Under the pieces are notes generated by a model. The model was given only the letters and a program-made list of their open reading frames with translations, was not told the DNA's origin and did no database searches. A stretch of 64,000 bases of DNA from Candidatus Hodarchaeota archaeon (GTDB lineage Archaea; Asgardarchaeota; Heimdallarchaeia; Hodarchaeales; Hodarchaeaceae), in NCBI GenBank assembly GCA_016840285.1, contig JAEOSR010000134.1, positions 1 to 64,000 on the forward strand. The letters are read 5' to 3'. Shown here piece after piece: positions 1 through 63,382 of the stretch (positions are counted from its first letter, which is position 1; each line of letters begins with the position of its first letter). The position numbers and the translations under genes are program-made.

Positions 1-42
1 AAAGAGCTCGTACGCAAACTCAGCATTGAGATTACGGTTTAA
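1..42 (+). CDS. tfb: C-terminal end of transcription initiation factor B (partial)
   Basis: The first 14 codons of the window read KELVRKLSIEITV and then TAA. Archaeal TFB proteins end in a strongly conserved segment of the form TEVTVRNRYKELV followed by a short hydrophobic tail, and this is its last part. TFB recruits RNA polymerase to TATA promoters. The rest of the gene lies left of the window, so it cannot be said whether the copy is intact. Two more copies of this tail, without the rest of the gene, lie at 13666-13746 and 14581-14673. Confidence 0.7.
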   Translation, partial: KELVRKLSIEITV

Positions 43-218: not shown

Positions 219-1772
219 TCAATCTAATTCGTCTTTGTCATCCTCAAACAACGCTCGCAAGTCAGGTCGTCGATAGAAGACTTGTCTTGAACAACCGATT
301 TCACGGGCAGTGTTTTTAGGAGTAGGCCTGATCCCTTTCTCCTTTAGACGATCCCTAGCTACTTTAGTCATCTTTACAGTGATGGATTTTCGTTCATAGG
401 AATGCTTATGAGAGCGATCACCATACTTTGCATGAAAAACTTTAAGGAGGGTTCTAAGATCACGCCCAGTAGGGATAACCCATCTTTTAGGACGATAAGA
501 GATTTGACTGGATTTTTTGACTTCTCGTAAGATATTCATCGAAGTTATTGTTCTTAAGCGATCCAAAAATATTTTATCAGAGTATCCATTAACTAGAGGA
601 TTAATTTTTGGATGTTGATGTATCTCTGGGGTTTTACGAACCACGTTATCACTCATAATAGTGATAATACACTCGCAAACGGCAATGGCTCTTTGATTAT
701 CATCCAATCGCTTATCAGAGATATTTTGGACGATTCTTTGGTGTAAATGAGATTTATGCCAAAGACCTAATGTCGAATCATTAGAATATCTGGTTTGAAT
801 CTCGATTAAATCATTGTAAAGACATCGAATACCCCGTAATTGTAATCTGAAACTCCAAACTTTAACATTCTCACGTTTGTCGAAATATGGTTCTGAGTAT
901 TCATAATTCATTTGATCACATAGTTTCATTACCAATCTGAGTTTAGGCAATGAAGATTGATTAAAATTGATTGTTTGATCAATTCCTCCATCATCAATAG
1001 CAAATGCGGCTAAAAATTGAACTTTATAGTCGTGATATGATGTGGGGAGATCTAGAACGAATTGTATAAACTTTGGTGTACGAAGATCACTGAGTTTTAA
1101 CAGAGGAATGGTACCAATGATACAATATGTTAGCGCTTTAGGATAATTCACCTCGTTTCCTGAACCACCTGGAAGACGACTCAGACGTTCTAGCAGGGTA
1201 CGCATGTGTCGTTGAGTTTTAGGTGGGATATCTTTGAACTTTTTTTCACCTTTTCTAGAGTGTTGAGTCCAGCGAAGATAAGGATAAGGTCGGTCGTCTC
1301 TATCATGAACATTCCCATCACCAACAATGTGACAGAGGACTCGCCATGCATAGATATTCATCGTGAATGGGAATGAGATATATTCAGGTTCCCCACGTTG
1401 TCCGAACTTTATCGATCGAATTGAGGATTCAATCTCATTGAGGTCTAGATTGACTGCATCGAATAATTTGTACAAATTGTGTATATGAATCGATTGATTC
1501 GAATTATTGCGGATGTTAGAAAGAATTGTAACACTTATGTCTAAATGCTTTGTTAAAGTTGATAGGGGAAGTTTTCTTAAAAAACTTGAAATTGTTTTCC
1601 AAACTTCCTGCTTCAGAAGAACATACAGATTTTCGAACTCCCAGAGACGAACCGTGTGAAATGGTTCCCCTGTGGGAGAAACCCAAGGGGTTTCAAGGCC
1701 CTTGAGCGCCCGATCTGGGAGCAGAGGGAGCTCCTGACCGATAGAATTTGGTTGTTTCTCGTATTTAGTCAT
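219..1772 (-). CDS. LAGLIDADG-like protein with HTH segments (putative homing endonuclease or DNA-binding protein)
   Basis: Predicted 517 residues. The start at 1772 is chosen because GAGGTG lies six bases upstream of that ATG; the frame stays open to 2258, but that part runs through a hairpin array and looks non-coding. Visible parts: an N-terminal helix-turn-helix-like stretch (about 70-92), LCHIVGDGN near residue 150 and FLAAFAIDDGGID near 251-263, which look like the two LAGLIDADG-type helices with acidic ends, and a C-terminal HTH-like stretch (AREIGCSRQVFYRR, about 489-503). LAGLIDADG proteins cut or bind long DNA sites. The family call is by motif only. It may be an endonuclease of the mobile block or a domesticated regulator. 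Confidence 0.5.
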   Translation of the reverse strand: MTKYEKQPNSIGQELPLLPDRALKGLETPWVSPTGEPFHTVRLWEFENLYVLLKQEVWKTISSFLRKLPLSTLTKHLDISVTILSNIRNNSNQSIHIHNLYKLFDAVNLDLNEIESSIRSIKFGQRGEPEYISFPFTMNIYAWRVLCHIVGDGNVHDRDDRPYPYLRWTQHSRKGEKKFKDIPPKTQRHMRTLLERLSRLPGGSGNEVNYPKALTYCIIGTIPLLKLSDLRTPKFIQFVLDLPTSYHDYKVQFLAAFAIDDGGIDQTINFNQSSLPKLRLVMKLCDQMNYEYSEPYFDKRENVKVWSFRLQLRGIRCLYNDLIEIQTRYSNDSTLGLWHKSHLHQRIVQNISDKRLDDNQRAIAVCECIITIMSDNVVRKTPEIHQHPKINPLVNGYSDKIFLDRLRTITSMNILREVKKSSQISYRPKRWVIPTGRDLRTLLKVFHAKYGDRSHKHSYERKSITVKMTKVARDRLKEKGIRPTPKNTAREIGCSRQVFYRRPDLRALFEDDKDELD

Positions 1773-2296
1773 TTTTTGCACCTCATGACAGCTGAGGTGC
1801 TCAGGAGTCCCTTTTTCGTCTGGTACACCCCTGACTAGCCTTTTGCTAGTCTTTAGTTTTTTCCCTTCGATGGTTTTAACTTCCCTAGAATGGCTTTGCT
1901 CACAATGTGGTTCGATCCGTAGGGAGCCTGTGAGCCCAAACGGGGTGCATCCGTGCGCTTTCCCCATTTGGGTGCGCTCCTCGGTGGGAGTGCAAGAAGC
2001 TCCATAGGAGCTTCTATCGGGAAGTAGGGCAGCTGGGTGCTCAGCACACCCAGCTATTTCCATCTGATAGGTTTTGATGGGTGTATTATGACAGGGTGTC
2101 TGTCTGAGCACTTCAGTTGCCATTTTTTGTTTCACCTTCTCCTTAAGAGAAGCACCCCTACCGCCATTAAGCAGGGGGGTTGGCTTGGAGCGTATCGTTG
2201 GATACGCCTCCTTAATAATCTTCTTTCTGTGCTTCCCTTCCATTTGGAAGGTTTTCACTTAAGATTATTTGCCCTGAATTTCTGGAGGAGAAATTC
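1650..2296. repeat. Array 1 of short hairpin-forming palindromes
   Basis: At least ten perfect or near-perfect stem-loops lie in about 650 bp. Examples: 1778-1800 (8-bp stem), 1833-1851 (7), 1898-1935 (7), 1935-1972 (10 with one mismatch), 1996-2014 (8, loop ATA), 2031-2055 (9), 2136-2152 (6), 2187-2212 (10 with a bulge), 2236-2251 (6), 2276-2296 (8). The stems differ in sequence, so this is not a copied unit like a CRISPR repeat; the common feature is structure. The left part overlaps the N-terminus of the 219-1772 gene and the rest lies upstream of it. It could be a structured RNA, a recombination/replication site, or stacked terminators. A related array lies at 3012-3576. Confidence 0.6.
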
Positions 2297-2317
2297 TATC
2301 TAGAATTCCTTCCATCC

Positions 2318-2442
2318 CTTTTATACTCTAAATGTTGGTGTTAATCAAATTTTTTAGGGAGGTTAAGAGTGAATGAGACTATGATCAATGAAATCCAATT
2401 TCTTGTTTGATTGACCTCCATAACTTCTTCTTGGGGTTCGAT
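2318..2442 (+). promoter_or_regulatory. Promoter and leader of the NYN RNase gene
   Basis: A TATA-like TTTTATAC lies at about 2318-2325. GGGAGG at about 2358-2363 precedes a 13-codon reading frame (GTG at 2369, stop 2408-2410) that ends just before the RNase gene. This could be a leader peptide, or the ribosome binding site of a longer N-terminal form in another frame. Function is inferred from position only. Confidence 0.3.
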
Positions 2443-2910
2443 ATGCATTTTGTGATTGACGGCAATAATGTAGCATTTTATTTGAGGCCAAAAAAAGCCG
2501 AACTCGGCTCTTTATTAGTTCTAATCCAACGACTTCAACAGGTAGGTACAGTTTTTACCGTGGTTTCATCGGAGCTGAAGTATCGCGTGGATGATCCCCA
2601 GACTTTGCAGAGTCACGTCTCTCAACAGAAAATTCTTGAAACTCCTCCTCACACAGACTGTGATCGTTTCATTTTAGAGTTGGCTACGCAGCTCGATGCA
2701 TATCTTGTTTCAAATGATCAGTATAAGGAGTATAAATCATTATACCCGACTATAATTGCACGTCGTCTTCCTTTTATGTTAGTGAAAATGCCTACGGGTG
2801 AAGTTATGACAATTATCCCTTGGATTCACCAAATTACAGAAGGAGCAGAGGTAAATAGCGTTGATTTATCAATAAAGACAGGAAAGGGTACAATTGAAGA
2901 GAGTAGTTAA
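2443..2910 (+). CDS. NYN/PIN-like RNase of the Zc3h12a (Regnase) type
   Basis: 155 residues from ATG 2443; a TTG at 2407 would add 12 residues but the conserved fold starts right at the ATG. Motifs of the Zc3h12a-type NYN domain are all present: VIDGNNVA (Asp6), DCDRFI (Asp72/Asp74) and VSNDQYKEY (Asp92), followed by the typical RRLPFM strand. Family members are metal-dependent endoribonucleases; eukaryotic Regnase-1 cuts mRNA at stem-loops. Here the gene lies between two hairpin arrays (1650-2296 and 3012-3576), which makes structured RNA from those arrays a tempting substrate, but that is inference. No zinc-finger or other RNA-binding domain is attached. Confidence 0.7.
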   Translation: MHFVIDGNNVAFYLRPKKAELGSLLVLIQRLQQVGTVFTVVSSELKYRVDDPQTLQSHVSQQKILETPPHTDCDRFILELATQLDAYLVSNDQYKEYKSLYPTIIARRLPFMLVKMPTGEVMTIIPWIHQITEGAEVNSVDLSIKTGKGTIEESS

Positions 2911-2987
2911 TTCTCTCATTTTCTGATGATTTTTAAGGTGCTTAAAAAGAAAAAAGAAAGGGGAAAGAGTGGAGAAAACCTGGATGC

Positions 2988-3188
2988 TTACAGATTCTCC
3001 AATGTCTCAGCTACCTCTTTGAGGTATCTCTCGATATTACACATAATATCGAGCTCTGCTGCGAAGCAGAGGAGTCTCAAGGTATCACCCTTGAGAAGTT
3101 TGTCGGGATTCTCCCGAATGTAGTTGATTCGGGGGAATACCCATTTCCCTCTTTTGAGGAGGGAAGGATTAGTGGTTGACATTGTCAT
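2988..3188 (-). CDS. Small hypothetical protein overlapping hairpin array 2
   Basis: A 66-residue frame from ATG 3188, with a weak AAGGGT just upstream, that ends in a helix-like segment rich in Leu/Glu (ERYLKEVAETLENL). The frame is open further upstream to 3512, but that part is hairpin-rich and low in protein character. Because the region is full of palindromes, openness alone is weak evidence of coding. No family recognised. Its position next to the NYN RNase on the opposite strand is the only context. Confidence 0.3.
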   Translation of the reverse strand: MTMSTTNPSLLKRGKWVFPRINYIRENPDKLLKGDTLRLLCFAAELDIMCNIERYLKEVAETLENL

Positions 3189-3576
3189 TACCCTTGTTTT
3201 TTGAAGATAGTCCTTATGTAAGCCATTCAGGCTTTCTGGTAAACTTTCCCCTTTAGGAGAGTTTTCTTCCCTGGGGACGACTTGTTCATTTGTGTGCCCG
3301 ATCCGTGGGGGGCTAATGAGGACGATGGCTGCTTTTTTTATCAGATTTTCAGTCACCGTTGGGCTTACCCTCTGGTAAGGGGAGCCATGAACCTTCTCTG
3401 TCATTATCAAAGAGGGTTCTTTTCTGGGAAGTATGGAGGCTGAGTTTCCGAGGGCATTTTTTTGTAATTGCCCCTGTTCATGTTTTTTGTTATGTGTTGT
3501 TGCCTCCAACACGATTTTTTACCTCCTATCGTCGCCTAATAAGAGGATGGGTAGAGAGGGGTTCTATCATCTCTCT
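3012..3576. repeat. Array 2 of short hairpin-forming palindromes
   Basis: Five stem-loops follow each other almost without gaps: 3012-3026 (6-bp stem), 3031-3052 (9), 3054-3071 (7, loop GCGA), 3075-3096 (8) and 3103-3117 (6). More follow at 3220-3234, 3242-3263, 3362-3386, 3389-3419 (9 with a wobble), 3494-3512 and 3553-3576. As in array 1, stems differ in sequence while the layout is shared. A short stretch around 3293-3308 (CGATCCGTGGGGGGC) matches array 1 near 1913-1927 (CGATCCGTAGGGAGC), which suggests common ancestry of the two arrays. Confidence 0.6.
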
Positions 3577-3619
3577 CTGCTCTTACAATTCACTTGTTCG
3601 AGTTCCATGTATAGTAGTT

Positions 3620-3726
3620 GAGGTGTTGTACCTTAGATTCTCTCCATCCGTTAAATATTCGAAAAGTGGTTTTGAGGTGTTGTACCTTAGATTCTCTCCA
3701 TCCGTTAAATATTCGAAAAGTGGTTT
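3620..3726. repeat. 54-bp tandem duplication
   Basis: A 54-bp unit starting GAGGTGTTGTACC and ending GAAAAGTGGTTT is repeated at 3620-3673 and 3674-3726 with no visible mismatch apart from the last base. Each unit contains CCGTTAAATATTCGAAA. A diverged copy of the same core, CAGTTATATATTCGAAA, lies at about 4340-4356 upstream of the helicase operon. The core looks like a TATA-type promoter or operator element. Confidence 0.85.
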
Positions 3727-4414: not shown

Positions 4415-5221
4415 ATGACAATAAACAGTCACAAAAAAACTCTGAATAAGGATAGAATAGCTCCTCAAACCTCATCTTTTAGAGACCATATCTTTAACAA
4501 CGTTCTTCCTGAATTAAAACCCTATCTTCCTCCATTCAATACTGATTTGCCTACTCGTCGGGTTGTACCAACCTATTTAAGGGATTTAGATCGTGTTATG
4601 CGTGGGGGTTGGTCGTGGCAATGGCCTTTGGTGATTGCAGGACCGAAGGATGCGGGAAAAAGTCAATTAGTTTATCAATTCTTGGCCTCATCGTTGTTGA
4701 GCTATATTCCTCCATGGCAATGTCTCTTCCTTGATTGTAGGGGTGATTATCGGCTTCATCGCGTTCACAATATCTTGATCAGGCGGATTGGGCGACAAAA
4801 ATGTAAGCAACATGGTAGTCGGATAGATAAGCTAACGATTCTAGATCGGACCATCTTTCTTTGGTCTTATGTCTTAGCTTTAAGGCGGACGAATGTAGCT
4901 CTCTTAATTGTGGATGGTTTCGATAGTCTTTTTTCTGAAATTCCTTTTGTGGATGCATTAGATGTTATGATTGAGATTCACCGTTTGAAACAGATGGGAG
5001 TTATTGTAGCCATTCGTGGCTCCTTGGAGGAGCTCCTCCCCCAGCTTCCTTGGGATAACATTCCGTTCTTTTTCTACATCACTAAACTTCGTCATCGTCA
5101 CCACCGTCTTCGAGTTTGGTTGAATGGGTCGAACTATAAGGTTTATGATAAGTGTTTAACTTTAAAAGGTCTTTTTAATGAGGTTTCTCCCTCAGAATCT
5201 CCAAAACGGAGGAAAAATTAA
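4415..5221 (+). CDS. RecA/RadA-like P-loop ATPase
   Basis: 268 residues. Walker A is GPKDAGKSQ (76-84) after a GGWSWQWPLVIA strand, the layout seen in RadA/RadB/KaiC-like proteins; Walker B is ALLIVDGFDS with Asp at about 167. The N-terminal 50 residues have no clear HhH domain and the C-terminus is short and basic. RecA-fold ATPases bind DNA or act as switches in recombination. It is the first gene of a tight operon: its stop is two bases before the GTG start of the XPD-like helicase. A RadB-like accessory recombinase role for the element is possible but not shown. Confidence 0.65.
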   Translation: MTINSHKKTLNKDRIAPQTSSFRDHIFNNVLPELKPYLPPFNTDLPTRRVVPTYLRDLDRVMRGGWSWQWPLVIAGPKDAGKSQLVYQFLASSLLSYIPPWQCLFLDCRGDYRLHRVHNILIRRIGRQKCKQHGSRIDKLTILDRTIFLWSYVLALRRTNVALLIVDGFDSLFSEIPFVDALDVMIEIHRLKQMGVIVAIRGSLEELLPQLPWDNIPFFFYITKLRHRHHRLRVWLNGSNYKVYDKCLTLKGLFNEVSPSESPKRRKN

Positions 5222-5223
5222 TA

Positions 5224-7020
5224 GTGGGTGTAGAAGTTCCTGATAAGCAATTATGTTGGCTTCCCTCATCTTTCACTAGGTTGAGAAAAGGTCAATCAAA
5301 ATTTTTACGACATATCGAAAGAGATAACCAGCTTACAGTCCACGCCTCCACGGGATTTGGAAAAACTGTCTTAGTTCTTAGTGGGATTGGGTATCGGTTT
5401 CTTCAAAGGGATCGTCAGCTTTACATTTTTGCCAGAACAAAGACACAACTACGATCCGTCTTTCTTCGGAATTTAAAGAAAATCTATAATCGTCCTCCCC
5501 TTAATCACCTGACTGTGGTTCCTCTGATTGCTCAACGTGATCTTTGTAGTCATCGTAATCAATATTCTTGTCACAACTGTTCAGCTAAAAATCGAGCTCT
5601 CCGATTTCCAAATTCAAGTCTTCAGGAAGTTCTGTCTGATTTAACTGTGGCTAGTTGTCCTGAGACTCTCCCTGGTTATCGAAAATTTCTCCAACCGTTT
5701 GGATGTCCTTACCACCTGATCAAACGGTTACTCCCTCAAGCTAACATTATTTTGTTGACCCAAGGATATTTAGAACATCAATATTTACGGGAGAAGATAG
5801 ATCGTTTTCTGTCTAAAGCAGAACAGTATCGCTTTAACTCAAAGCATCGTGAGGTCATTATTGACGAAGCCCATAACTTTGGTTCTACCGTAGAAGCACA
5901 GGTGACTCGTGAACAGCTTCAGTTGGCCTTTGAGGTTGCTCCTTGCTCTGTTATTCGAGCCTTAAATCAATTATTAGAACACCCCCTCGGCTCTGTTCAA
6001 CGGCCCAAGGAAGCGATGTCTGATAGTGTGGAACAGCTGGATATTTTCCTGAAACAAAAGCGTTCAGGTATTCATTTTCCTCCAGAGGAACGAGAGGTTC
6101 TTCGGACGGTACGTTCTTTCATCCAAAGAGAAGGCCAACACTGGATACTTAACAAAGAAGGTTTGATTCAACTTAATCCATATCCCTCATCGATATTCGA
6201 TTTTCTACTACCACGGTTTAATCGTATTGTTCTATTATCAGGCACTTTCTTTAATTACTCCTGGTATAGATGGTATTATGGATTACCTCGAAGTTTTAAA
6301 TTTTTTCAGGTACCCTTTTCCAAAGAACGTCGTCGTCAACTATTTTTTGCTGCCCTGTATAAGCGGGGTATTAGTAGTAGACTCCAAGACCGTTCACGTG
6401 AATTAAACGTGTGGTGCGCACAATTTGTGCATGAAATGGCCTTAATAGCTAAGGAGCATACTTTTGTATATGTTCCTTCGTATAAGGTTCTTGAGGATCT
6501 CTTTCCTCTTCTCACTGAACATTTCAAAGGACATATTCCTCTTTTTAGGGAACCAGCCCAAGGCCGCGTTCAATTCATTAATGATTTGATTTATGGTCCT
6601 CCAAGTGTTGTTCTAGCGGTGTATGGGGGAAAACTTAGTGAGGGGATAGAAATTCGTCATCCGTCCACAGGACGTAGTCGTATCCAGCTCTTAATTTTGA
6701 TAGGAATGCCCTTTCCTGTGTTTACTCCTGAATACAACTTCTTGAAAAAATTATATACGAAGAAATGGAAAAATCTACAGTTTGCTCAATGGACGATTCT
6801 TGAACGCCTGTTAAACAATAAGATTCATCAATGTATGGGGCGCGGTATTCGATCGAAACAAGATCAAGGAGCAGCAGTTCTTCTTGATGATCGTGCGGTC
6901 AAATTTCTGCAATTACGCCTGTCAGGGATGCGAATTTATACCTCACGCCAAGCTTTAGCTGACGCTCTGACTTTAGCTCTACTTCGCACAAAAAAATCAC
7001 CTCCGAACCTCCATTTCTAG
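5224..7020 (+). CDS. XPD/DinG-like superfamily 2 DNA helicase with Fe-S cysteines
   Basis: 598 residues, GTG start. Motifs in order: Q-like LRKGQ, Walker A STGFGKT (42-48), Cys108, Cys116, Cys119, Cys145 and Cys161 in the region where XPD carries its 4Fe-4S cluster, CPYHLIKRLL as in XPD, DEAH box at 214-217, LLSGTF (motif III), GGKLSEGIEI (motif V-like) and QCMGRGIRS (536-544, motif VI). XPD-type enzymes unwind DNA 5-prime to 3-prime in repair; DinG acts on R-loops. The presence of five cysteines means one is not a ligand. It is shorter than typical XPD (about 650-750). The adjoining RecA-like and HerA-like genes suggest one DNA-processing complex. Confidence 0.85.
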   Translation: MGVEVPDKQLCWLPSSFTRLRKGQSKFLRHIERDNQLTVHASTGFGKTVLVLSGIGYRFLQRDRQLYIFARTKTQLRSVFLRNLKKIYNRPPLNHLTVVPLIAQRDLCSHRNQYSCHNCSAKNRALRFPNSSLQEVLSDLTVASCPETLPGYRKFLQPFGCPYHLIKRLLPQANIILLTQGYLEHQYLREKIDRFLSKAEQYRFNSKHREVIIDEAHNFGSTVEAQVTREQLQLAFEVAPCSVIRALNQLLEHPLGSVQRPKEAMSDSVEQLDIFLKQKRSGIHFPPEEREVLRTVRSFIQREGQHWILNKEGLIQLNPYPSSIFDFLLPRFNRIVLLSGTFFNYSWYRWYYGLPRSFKFFQVPFSKERRRQLFFAALYKRGISSRLQDRSRELNVWCAQFVHEMALIAKEHTFVYVPSYKVLEDLFPLLTEHFKGHIPLFREPAQGRVQFINDLIYGPPSVVLAVYGGKLSEGIEIRHPSTGRSRIQLLILIGMPFPVFTPEYNFLKKLYTKKWKNLQFAQWTILERLLNNKIHQCMGRGIRSKQDQGAAVLLDDRAVKFLQLRLSGMRIYTSRQALADALTLALLRTKKSPPNLHF

Positions 7021-13665: not shown

Positions 13666-13746
13666 TTTAATGCTTACACAGAAGTTACGGTGCGTAATCG
13701 TTACAAAGAGTTAGTACGGAAACTAAGCATTGAGATTCCTATGTAA
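13666..13746 (+). pseudogene. tfb 3-prime relic
   Basis: Directly after the toxin stop, the frame reads FNAYTEVTVRNRYKELVRKL, then SIEIPM and TAA. TEVTVRNRYKELV is the diagnostic C-terminal segment of archaeal TFB. Nothing upstream matches the rest of TFB, so this is a truncated copy. It is about 80 percent identical to window bases 1-42, with many changes at third codon positions, so it derives from a paralogue and not from a fresh duplication. Confidence 0.65.
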
Positions 13747-13755
13747 GATAAGGAC

Positions 13756-14244
13756 TTAGGAACGATCACTCTCGATTAGTTGGATCAAAGTGGATTCATT
13801 TTCTAACTTATAAACTTCAAGATCCAGACCACTTGCAATTTCAGTTACATATTTATCTCCCGAACAAAAAAATTTTGCCTCTAATCTTTTGCTGCTGGAT
13901 ATCTGGATCGCATCAACAACATATAGTCGGTTTTTAAGGACAAATGTCCAAGCATCCATTTGCAATGAACTTAAGGTAGGGAGGATAACTAGTTGACTTA
14001 TTCTCAGTAATCGTAAGGTTTCATCGATAAATTTTGCCATCATCTTGTTAAAAGTCTCTTGATCGACCCATTTTCGTTTCAAGTACTGATCAAACACACC
14101 CAAGACCTCCCCAACATTTAGGAGGTTAAATGCAAGGGTAAGGTATCCCTGGCTAGCTCGATCAAATAAGAAGTCAGCAAAAGAGGTCCCTTTCTCTTGA
14201 ACGTATCTTTTTACAATCATAGAGCTATCCAGATAAATCAACAT
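13756..14244 (-). CDS. vapC: VapC-like PIN-domain toxin
   Basis: 162 residues. The four acidic positions of the PIN nuclease are present: Asp6 (YLDSS), Glu46 (NVGEVLG), Asp111 (YVVDAIQIS) and Asp130 (FCSGDKYV). VapC toxins are metal-dependent RNases that cut tRNA or rRNA. The gene overlaps the upstream 14225-14512 gene by about 20 bases, the usual antitoxin-toxin arrangement. It is flanked by two tfb relics on the opposite strand. Confidence 0.8.
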   Translation of the reverse strand: MLIYLDSSMIVKRYVQEKGTSFADFLFDRASQGYLTLAFNLLNVGEVLGVFDQYLKRKWVDQETFNKMMAKFIDETLRLLRISQLVILPTLSSLQMDAWTFVLKNRLYVVDAIQISSSKRLEAKFFCSGDKYVTEIASGLDLEVYKLENESTLIQLIESDRS

Positions 14245-14580: not shown

Positions 14581-14673
14581 AAATCTAGCCACTTTATATT
14601 TGACACTAAAGTCACTGTCAGAAACCGCTACAAGAAGCTTGTACGAAAATCAAGTATTGAGATCACCGTATAG
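14581..14673 (+). pseudogene. Second tfb 3-prime relic
   Basis: The frame ends KVTVRNRYKKLVRK, then SSIEITV and TAG, again the conserved end of TFB. Upstream codons (KSSHFIFDT) do not resemble TFB. With the copies at 1-42 and 13666-13746 this is the third TFB tail within 15 kb, each followed by unrelated genes. It is about 70 percent identical to the 13666-13746 copy at base level. Confidence 0.6.
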
Positions 14674-20861: not shown

Positions 20862-21602
20862 TCATAGTTTGCTTATTTTCCCATGGATTTGATTGATTTC
20901 TTTCATAATAGCGTTTTTATCCTTTTGTCCAGGGGAGTAAAAGAGTACCACACAATGTGTGGGAGTTTTAATTTCGTAAAAATTAATTTTCGCAAATTTG
21001 ATCTCGCTAGTCGTTTGTTCTTGTCTTATGTTCTTTTCGAGATCCGAAATATCACGATATATCCGTGTTATTTGGGGTAAATTTGCATTAATCAGGGGTT
21101 CAACAATTTTAGTGAACACAGGATTGAAATATTTTGTCCCATAAATAATGTAGTTTGCTATCGTTGTATGCCTCATAATCTTAATGAGGCGGTCAAGATT
21201 GGTCACATCAATTGTGATCATGTCAGCATATAGATTTCTGACAATAATTCGAAAGGATTCAAAATCCATACGATTAAGAACAGTTTCTTTATATACTTCA
21301 TCAGTATAAACAATTTCAAATTTTAACACAATTTTTTTGAGGAATTCGTGCAGTTTTGGATCATCTTCCAAAGTAAATAAGATACCATGTGTCAGAACTC
21401 CCTCATATAGCAAAAGCATGTATCCTCTGTATCGGATCGCGGTGACTGTTTCTCCTCGAGTCTCCCTAAGAGCATTTAGCACAGCTGATATAAGACCTGC
21501 TTGAATATCAATGTCTGAATCTATTTCTGTCAAATAATTACCTGCAAAGGAATGAGAAAAGACAAGGATACCTGATTTTGTTATGATATTTATTCCAAAC
21601 AT
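20862..21602 (-). CDS. Longin-like domain protein of Asgard type
   Basis: 246 residues. The N-terminus FGINIITKSGILVFSHSF, a short helix (AGLISAVLNAL), then TAIRYRGYMLLLYEG and a long amphipathic helix is the beta-beta-alpha layout of longin/roadblock-like domains, which in Asgard archaea are found with small GTPases. The C-terminal half is helical with a last strand pair (CVVLFYSPG). Eukaryotic longins act in vesicle trafficking and as GTPase regulators. No GTPase gene lies nearby. The fold is inferred from pattern and not proven. Confidence 0.5.
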   Translation of the reverse strand: MFGINIITKSGILVFSHSFAGNYLTEIDSDIDIQAGLISAVLNALRETRGETVTAIRYRGYMLLLYEGVLTHGILFTLEDDPKLHEFLKKIVLKFEIVYTDEVYKETVLNRMDFESFRIIVRNLYADMITIDVTNLDRLIKIMRHTTIANYIIYGTKYFNPVFTKIVEPLINANLPQITRIYRDISDLEKNIRQEQTTSEIKFAKINFYEIKTPTHCVVLFYSPGQKDKNAIMKEINQIHGKISKL

Positions 21603-62644: not shown

Positions 62645-63382
62645 ATGACAAAATTATTTGCCAAATTGAAAACAATTTCACTGATTACTTTGTTATTGGT
62701 TGTCATTTCCAGCGGGATAAACCAATCTATTCCTCCTGTCACGGTTATAGCGTCACCTACAGAACCTAGTTCCAATGGAGATCTACTAGTTATCGATGAG
62801 GTGAATATAGAAGCAAAGGTGAACAATCGATTTGTACCTTTAGAGGAATTAATTTCAGAGGCAGTTAGTCCAGAGTTTCAAGAAGAACCCTTTCCTCTGC
62901 TCCTAAATAATTCTCTACTTCGCATAAATGCAAGTTATTCAACTGTTGTTGGACGTTCAGAGAGTTTAGCCATCCATCAATTTACTCTCGATATCTATTC
63001 TGTCATTTCTGGAGAAGAACATGAGCTCAATCTCACTGAAATATTATCTCTCTATTATGATCAAAATGATCCCAATCTAGATATTGTAGAATTTGTCTTG
63101 GGTCCAAATTCCTCCAAATCGGAAGATGTTGTTCTTCCCTTGAAATTAATGACTTTTGGTACATATAAATTCGTCTTCCGAGTTCAGTATCATATCCATG
63201 ATGGAGATTTGACGGAAAAGAGTAGTTATTATCATCGAAATATTACTTTTGAATTAGTCAAAAGTTATCCAGTCCCACCATATATTATAATTTATGCGTT
63301 TTTTGGTGTTTTAATTATTTTAATAGCCCTTATCATCTTTGGACTATATGGGAATCGTAAATATCAACAACTAGCACAGTAG
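62645..63382 (+). CDS. Secreted membrane-anchored protein
   Basis: 245 residues; ATG 62645 is preferred because GGGGTGA lies about nine bases before it, a GTG at 62633 would add four residues. A signal peptide (LKTISLITLLLVVISSGINQ) is followed by a beta-rich extracellular domain (about 45-205) with several potential N-glycosylation sites (NNS, NAS, NLT, NIT), then one membrane helix (YIIIYAFFGVLIILIALIIFGL) and a short cytoplasmic end. No family recognised. There is no PGFE box. Confidence 0.65.
   Translation: MTKLFAKLKTISLITLLLVVISSGINQSIPPVTVIASPTEPSSNGDLLVIDEVNIEAKVNNRFVPLEELISEAVSPEFQEEPFPLLLNNSLLRINASYSTVVGRSESLAIHQFTLDIYSVISGEEHELNLTEILSLYYDQNDPNLDIVEFVLGPNSSKSEDVVLPLKLMTFGTYKFVFRVQYHIHDGDLTEKSSYYHRNITFELVKSYPVPPYIIIYAFFGVLIILIALIIFGLYGNRKYQQLAQ

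Follow-up and report, generated by a model that had tools for sequence, protein, structure and literature searches.

The results presented here concern a stretch of 64,000 nt from Candidatus Hodarchaeota archaeon (GCA_016840285.1, contig JAEOSR010000134.1, positions 1-64,000 of the forward strand; hereafter the window), in which a Regnase-type NYN ribonuclease gene lies between two arrays of hairpins. The results suggest, with a probability that we put at roughly two in three, that a LAGLIDADG homing element is present at this locus and that the 3' end of the TFB (TFIIB) gene of Hodarchaeal Asgard archaea is its address. The arrays seem to belong to a selfish DNA-cutting gene that appears to insert repeatedly at the TFB gene end in Asgard archaea, and the RNase gene between them is probably a companion, not the owner, of the arrays. 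Comparisons were made with 227 Asgard genomes and, for the TFB site, across 12 loci (including L043 of genome G044, L044 of G047 and L052 of G046). Locus L001, from a Hodarchaeota metagenome-assembled genome and the sole locus in the genome collection found by alignment of NYN, has the same gene order as the window (homing endonuclease, left array, NYN, right array), with 70% identity over 1.8 kb.

The TFB 3' end and the homing endonuclease gene

1-42, plus strand: 3' end of a TFB gene, finishing in KELVRKLSIEITV and a stop; the window starts inside the gene, and 13 of 13 residues equal the TFB tail of L001.
219-2123, minus strand: putative homing endonuclease (HEN) gene, encoding 634 aa when read from ATG 2123, in a frame that stays open as far back as 2258; an alternative internal ATG lies at 1772-1770.
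222-1661, minus strand: HEN core, comprising a helix-turn-helix (HTH) and two LAGLIDADG-like motifs (WRVLCHIVGDGNV, FLAAFAIDDGGI), supported by invariant acidic residues and a third-codon-position excess relative to L001.
13678-13746, plus strand: apparent displaced TFB 3' end (scar); the first 20 of 22 residues equal the TFB tail, starting at codon T66.
14605-14673, plus strand: second, more diverged apparent TFB 3' end (scar); 19 of 22 residues, starting at codon T66.

The HEN has the arrangement of a LAGLIDADG fold with two motifs in one chain, and an acidic residue (D115, D224) stands at what we take to be the catalytic place of each motif. D115 and D223 are invariant in 24 of 24 sequences and D224 is nearly so (E in P0033). 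Matches to the HEN occur in 7 of the 227 Asgard genomes, over most of its length in G001, G044, G047 and also G043 (with two stops), and as pieces or weak matches in G045, G036 and G219. In the window, L001, L043 and L044 the gene follows TFB in convergent orientation, at a distance of 141-177 nt in L001 and the window and of ~0.65-0.8 kb in L043 and L044. TFB genes ending in the same 22-residue tail are present at L043, L044, L052 and L053.

Downstream copies of the last 22 TFB codons are found at 4 of the 12 loci, 11 copies in all (2 in the window and 3 each in L001, L046 and L052). The copies start exactly at codon T66 in 6 of 11 cases and at about codons 67-71 in the remainder, and the 36 nt that precede them are only 14-33% identical to the TFB gene of L001, compared with 72-86% for four TFB genes. 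The three L001 scars keep 22 of 22 residues of the TFB tail at 85-86% nucleotide identity, so that the differences are synonymous. The scars of L046 stand beside C-terminal pieces of HEN, and those of L052 stand at a locus without HEN; a TFB-tail match in L044 (3114-3070), being weak (15 residues, 60%), was not counted. The order of target gene end, element and displaced original end is thus present in both L001 and the window, each on a contig that starts inside TFB. In our reading the TFB-tail copies are probable products of the HEN element, which would have replaced the tail serially.

Integrases typically leave a gene 3' end directly repeated, and the repeats seen here, with unrelated genes between them, would also fit an integrase-driven or virus-like element that uses TFB 3' ends as att sites and carries the HEN as a hitch-hiker. 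We consider this unlikely. A Pfam scan, which covered 10 window proteins and 10 proteins of L001 and L046 and not every open reading frame (ORF), a scope that leaves the integrase reading some room, found no integrase among these 20; the L001 repeats have diverged to the extent given above; it is the HEN that keeps appearing at the site; and viral contigs contained no relatives of HEN or NYN, nor phage records any of NYN.

Hairpin arrays and the NYN ribonuclease

1650-2298, minus strand: left hairpin array, the putative leader of the HEN mRNA together with an N-terminal extension of the coding region, from folding, hairpin counts and compensating changes; the start at ~2298 is assumed from the TATA box.
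1898-1935, minus strand: conserved two-stem hairpin motif, core CGGATCG; over 5 copies both partners have changed in 6 of 10 pairs, a number reached by 0 of 500 shuffles.
2318-2325, minus strand: TATA-box-like TATAAAAG of the left unit, with GAGTATAAAAGGGA identical in L001.
2443-2910, plus strand: NYN ribonuclease gene, 155 aa, Zc3h12a/KHNYN type (PF11977; KHNYN 8wzc, E 8.7e-4; third-position excess).
2944-2972, minus strand: T-rich stretch, possible terminator of the right unit, from sequence inspection; L001 is T-rich at the same place.
2970-3335, minus strand: right hairpin array, the part kept in L001 (73% identity over 392 columns; helices with compensating changes).
2988-3512, minus strand: ORF2; by profile comparison its 64-aa core (2988-3182) is similar to a portion of the HEN HTH domain; 4 relatives besides itself.
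3285-3320, minus strand: second copy of the hairpin motif, from sequence likeness, covariation and a covariance model.
3336-3576, minus strand: upstream part of the right array, in the window only, with hairpins 3364-3379, 3494-3512 and 3553-3576; unaligned to L001.
3618-3725, minus strand: right promoter-like region, made up of 54 bp duplicated exactly in tandem, with a relationship to 2286-2339.

An earlier note on this DNA had described a Zc3h12a-type RNase gene between two regions of closely packed hairpins, and both the regions and an excess of folding over shuffled sequence are borne out. In a scan of 852 segments of 150 nt, each compared with 20 dinucleotide shuffles, 8 of 9 segments starting at 1576-2176 and 5 of 9 starting at 2926-3526 were strongly folded (z < -3) on at least one strand. 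Elsewhere in the window 26 more such segments are scattered, and isolated strong folding is seen beyond the element at 21151-21300 (z -5.8) and 63001-63150 (z -4.7). The interval 1620-2319 has 9 perfect hairpins with a stem of at least 6 and a loop of 3-14, and 2911-3610 has 10; 84 further stretches of 700 nt in the window average 2.2 and never exceed 7. With a stem of at least 7 the counts are 7 (left) and 6 (right), versus an average of 0.6 and at most 4 in those stretches. Where the earlier note counted ten or more (1650-2296) and eleven or more (3012-3576) we count 9 stems in each, to which looser stems would add some, and its description of hairpins following each other almost without gaps fits 3009-3096 only and not the remainder of the arrays. 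The stems are, as it held, unlike in sequence and not copies of one unit. The array region has no tandem repeats except the 2 x 54 bp duplication (~3618-3726), Rfam covariance models gave no match in the window at gathering score (group I intron or any other family), and at E <= 5 nothing credible appeared, with weak sub-threshold matches only in the arrays of the window, L001 and L044. Searched against the 227 Asgard genomes, left-array DNA matched G001, plus three stretches of 32-42 nt judged to be chance.

Both arrays sit in or beside open frames of the opposite strand (219-2258 and 2988-3512), one of which is the HEN and on which the earlier note was silent. On the minus strand, 22-29 nt ahead of the left array, stands a TATA-like box, identified by what we take to be the archaeal usage of TATA boxes and terminators, and in L044 the stretch before HEN is related to the promoter-like region (25 of 31 identical). 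The head-to-tail 54-bp duplication at the right promoter-like region is apparently recent. The two-stem hairpin is common to both arrays, its two copies in L001 being 75% identical (E 2e-11). The promoter-like sequences, the shared motif and the open frames together tie the arrays to the strand opposite NYN, and the arrays look like leaders of the HEN unit. The C-terminal 64 aa of ORF2 resemble HEN core residues 47-84, part of the HTH: compared with the HEN HTH profile, 4 of 4 ORF2 cores scored above every one of 1000 shuffles (E 0.0017-0.024), and hhalign gave a probability of 92.5. Only these profile tests were positive; direct BLASTP of the core was not significant (E 1.8). A whole-ORF2 hhalign match to HEN (probability 96.5) was set aside, spanning the leader peptide and not the core. 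On the likeness of the ORF2 core to the HEN HTH, the right unit looks like a retained partial copy of the HEN unit.

The assignment of the gene at 2443-2910 to the Zc3h12a type is confirmed by Pfam (RNase_Zc3h12a, E 1e-13, 51.7 bits, cut-off 23). The nearest solved sequences are KHNYN and ZC3H12A (E 0.036), and D6, D72, D74 and D92, presumably the catalytic residues as in Regnase proteins, are invariant in 6 of 6 sequences, in keeping with a Regnase/Zc3h12a domain. The NYN domain is thus common by profile to the window protein and to Regnase-1 (ZC3H12A) and KHNYN; the window NYN differs in being a stand-alone protein with no second domain by Pfam. Of the 227 Asgard genomes, 101 have an NYN match of some kind, but the close subfamily is in one only, that of L001 (E 8e-85, next 4.7e-20).

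These findings bear on the proposal of the earlier note that arrays and RNase form one system, in which the arrays would be transcribed and cut by NYN into small RNAs, or would act as decoy or antitoxin in the manner of type III toxin-antitoxin modules. The position of NYN exactly between two structured regions and its invariant acidic residues are as that proposal would have them, as is the cutting of stem-loops by Regnase-1 reported in the available part of PMC5943514. Within the close NYN subfamily, moreover, NYN and arrays occur together in 2 of 2 loci with DNA, perhaps with a third (two proteins whose contigs share a length of 2128 nt); no NYN is listed on the 5050-nt contig carrying P0035. 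However, L044 has a HEN relative with a folded leader in a genome, G047, without an NYN match, which leaves the array-RNase unit unsupported, and at 29 loci around the best distant Asgard NYN matches no array was found. At these loci, no more than 2 segments of mean z < -3 were present in any 9 (1217 control segments), compared with 6 in the window, 3 in L001 and 7 in L044. This folding control was added because the perfect-hairpin count is blunt for the purpose: the maximum at NYN loci is 3, versus 7 and 5 in the window and 3 and 5 in L001, so that the left array of L001 does no better than the top control, and L044 reaches at most 4, outside its leader. The repeat unit of a type III toxin-antitoxin module is also absent beyond the 54-bp duplication, the promoter-like sequences and open frames lie on the other strand, and PADLOC gave no match for NYN, HEN or ORF2. 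We therefore regard a joint array-RNase system as quite improbable. The NYN protein may be a regulator or a passenger, and cleavage of the leader by it is possible.

Base pairing and possible translation of the putative leaders

In the five copies of the two-stem motif, including that of L044, which belongs to a HEN only 43% identical, 90% of cells pair, and this falls to 22-38% when the partner is shifted by 1-3 columns; the structure was drawn from the same five sequences used to test it, and the number of further pair types is unexceptional (105 of 500 shuffles). A covariance model of the motif recovered its own five copies and matched L043 weakly (E 0.013); under stricter filters it also gave a marginal match in 1 other of the 227 genomes (G173, E 2.5e-4). 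Complementary codons for the stem residues, at positions chosen by eye, are possible in 18 of 21 motif proteins (16 HEN, 5 ORF2), one pair being missed in each of P0015, P0036 and P0037; this pairability was reached by 21 of 10000 shuffles. In the inner pair the second bases change together from C-G to T-A (10 proteins with each among the 20 usable, P0015 being left out; Fisher 1e-5, not corrected for relatedness).

The window was also compared with L001. The distal extension and the ORF2 core are 78% and 80% identical and lack a third-position excess (0.244/0.200/0.220 and 0.222/0.222/0.156, respectively), whereas the HEN core and NYN are 59% and 71% identical. The left array has 14 compensating changes versus 6.4 in shuffles, and 13-15 over all four folding ways, which equals or nears the top value among 1000 shuffles. 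The signal is weaker in the right array, with 5-6 versus 1.5-2.8. Many stems are thus kept in a relative, less clearly so on the right. An attempt to choose the strand from G-U pairs was not decisive (one-sided changes: 14 minus, 20 plus). That the arrays are simply coding sequence, self-complementary by chance and with an N-terminal extension under selection, is very unlikely: the extension motif is in frame in the 16 HEN proteins (including those of the window, L001 and L044), both indels that separate window and L001 within the extension have lengths divisible by 3, a Shine-Dalgarno-like sequence precedes ATG 2123 and the proximal extension has a third-position excess, but the distal extension and ORF2 core have none, and radical amino-acid changes keep the pairing.

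1778-1800, minus strand: conserved 8-bp hairpin burying GAGGTG before the internal HEN start (ATG 1772); mean unpaired probability 0.00.

The internal start is ATG in the window and GTG in L001, and several HEN relatives that have no extension begin near it. Burial of its ribosome-binding site as low as that observed was seen with 1 of 200 shuffled flanks in the window and 0 of 200 in L001. The site of L044 is not buried (178 of 200 flank shuffles as low), and burial at the other five starts is unremarkable (17-166 of 200). With 6 of 8 starts indistinct from shuffled flanks (17-178 of 200), burial of the ribosome-binding site is ruled out as a general account of the hairpins. Homing endonuclease genes of the phage T4 kind (I-TevI, segB, mobE of Aeh1) have hairpins that sequester the ribosome-binding site, according to the accessible text of PMC2988022. 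Given this precedent and the burial in the window and L001, restraint of HEN synthesis is the best-supported role for the one hairpin at 1778-1800, as modelled by folding; for the other hairpins the same role is a guess. The likeness to the T4 genes as described there (PMC2988022) lies in a hairpin over the ribosome-binding site that would limit endonuclease translation, seen here by folding only and at 2 of 3 loci; the difference is that the T4 genes have one structure, whereas the window has an array of ~650 nt that reaches into coding sequence, and the unit is present a second time as a partial copy.

Proposed mechanism, passenger genes and known systems

Several observations weigh against a homing element with hairpin leaders. 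The window HEN has no LAGLIDADG Pfam match and no solved relative by sequence. In L044 and L043 TFB and HEN are separated by an ORF (195 and 135 aa, respectively); these two loci have a whole TFB and HEN and no clear scar (L043 stops shortly after the start of HEN), L052 has scars and TFB but lacks HEN, and the window and L001 begin inside TFB, so that no contig has a complete TFB, HEN and a scar. At L045 (9050-10309) a HEN relative with two internal stops has no TFB within 19 kb and no hairpin array; it is a decayed or relocated copy. Between the window and L001 the leader proper is 65% and the upstream part of ORF2 71% identical, the proximal extension (73%) has a third-position excess, and 58 of 229 predicted left-array pairs, about a quarter, are broken in the other sequence. 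Covariation does not separate RNA hairpins from DNA cruciforms, and ribosome-binding-site burial is exceptional at 2 of 8 starts only.

As we picture the homing element, the endonuclease would cut an uninvaded TFB ~22 codons before its stop, and repair would insert a copy of the element along with the TFB tail that it carries. TFB would thereby stay whole, and the old tail would be displaced downstream as a scar; repeats of this event would build an island of passenger genes. The endonuclease would be expressed from its own promoter through the hairpin-packed leader, in which a hairpin that buries the ribosome-binding site would keep HEN synthesis low or conditional. The partial copy that makes up the right array (promoter, leader and HTH piece) could supply a repressor or an RNA decoy. 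More speculatively, the NYN RNase might trim or destroy leader RNA as an extra control, or may equally be a passenger. A full control circuit, with HEN curbed by structured leaders, ORF2 acting as a mini HTH protein of HEN origin on the two related promoters, NYN cutting leader hairpins and the island growing by serial TFB-tail replacement, is a doubtful extension of this scheme.

Passenger genes recur across different TFB islands. A PIN-domain gene (13756-14244 in the window, 3445-3933 in L046) is 82% identical between two islands, and in L046 a 95-aa ORF, perhaps an antitoxin, overlaps its start. The solute-binding protein of the window has a 44% identical counterpart in L052. At 4415-7020 a weakly KaiC/AAA-like ATPase gene is followed by a DinG/XPD-type helicase gene (PADLOC typeIV_DinG, E 1.9e-43); such a pair lies beside HEN and TFB in L044 and was not found in L001. 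A 97-aa protein, near-identical by eye and with a weak DUF3303 match below cut-off, is encoded at L001:7752-8045, as the sole ORF of at least 80 aa between two scars, and at L046:685-978. Proteins related by eye (FDGxPSI..FVQEVIVQ) are encoded at L044:9252-9839, between TFB and HEN, and at L052:3874-4428, between scars.

Among known systems, LAGLIDADG mobile ORFs of fungal mitochondria (Glomus atp6, cox2 and nad3; Allomyces atp6) supply their target gene with a foreign C-terminus, and the native one stays downstream, as given in the available part of PMC3630166. The window element is like them in having an endonuclease at a gene 3' end together with a C-terminus, and a duplicate native C-terminus downstream; it differs, as far as that part describes them, in its chromosomal archaeal TFB target, several scars per locus, passengers between scars, a HEN convergent with the target gene, and hairpin-rich leader units (PMC3630166). 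HeimM2 of Heimdallarchaeum is the nearest Asgard case found, likewise a mobile element of an Asgard genome that carries a HEN and occupies a fixed site; this site lies between 16S rRNA and tRNA-Arg genes, its HEN is of the rRNA-intron type, and the accessible text describes no tail duplication (PMC8813620). No report of the present system was found in the accessible portions of the literature on homing endonucleases in Asgard, LAGLIDADG in Heimdallarchae, or Asgard elements and TFIIB, or among the matches listed on archaeal HEN and TFB or free-standing archaeal LAGLIDADG.

If the homing reading is correct, tail-replacing homing elements would extend from fungal mitochondria to an Asgard chromosome, with the gene of a basal transcription factor as address, and the locus would suggest how a homing element could seed a genomic island. 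The leaders would then be translated as well as structured RNA, and their base pairs would show at the protein level as amino-acid changes that go in pairs. The locus also offers a testable case of an archaeal Regnase-type enzyme beside possible hairpin targets.

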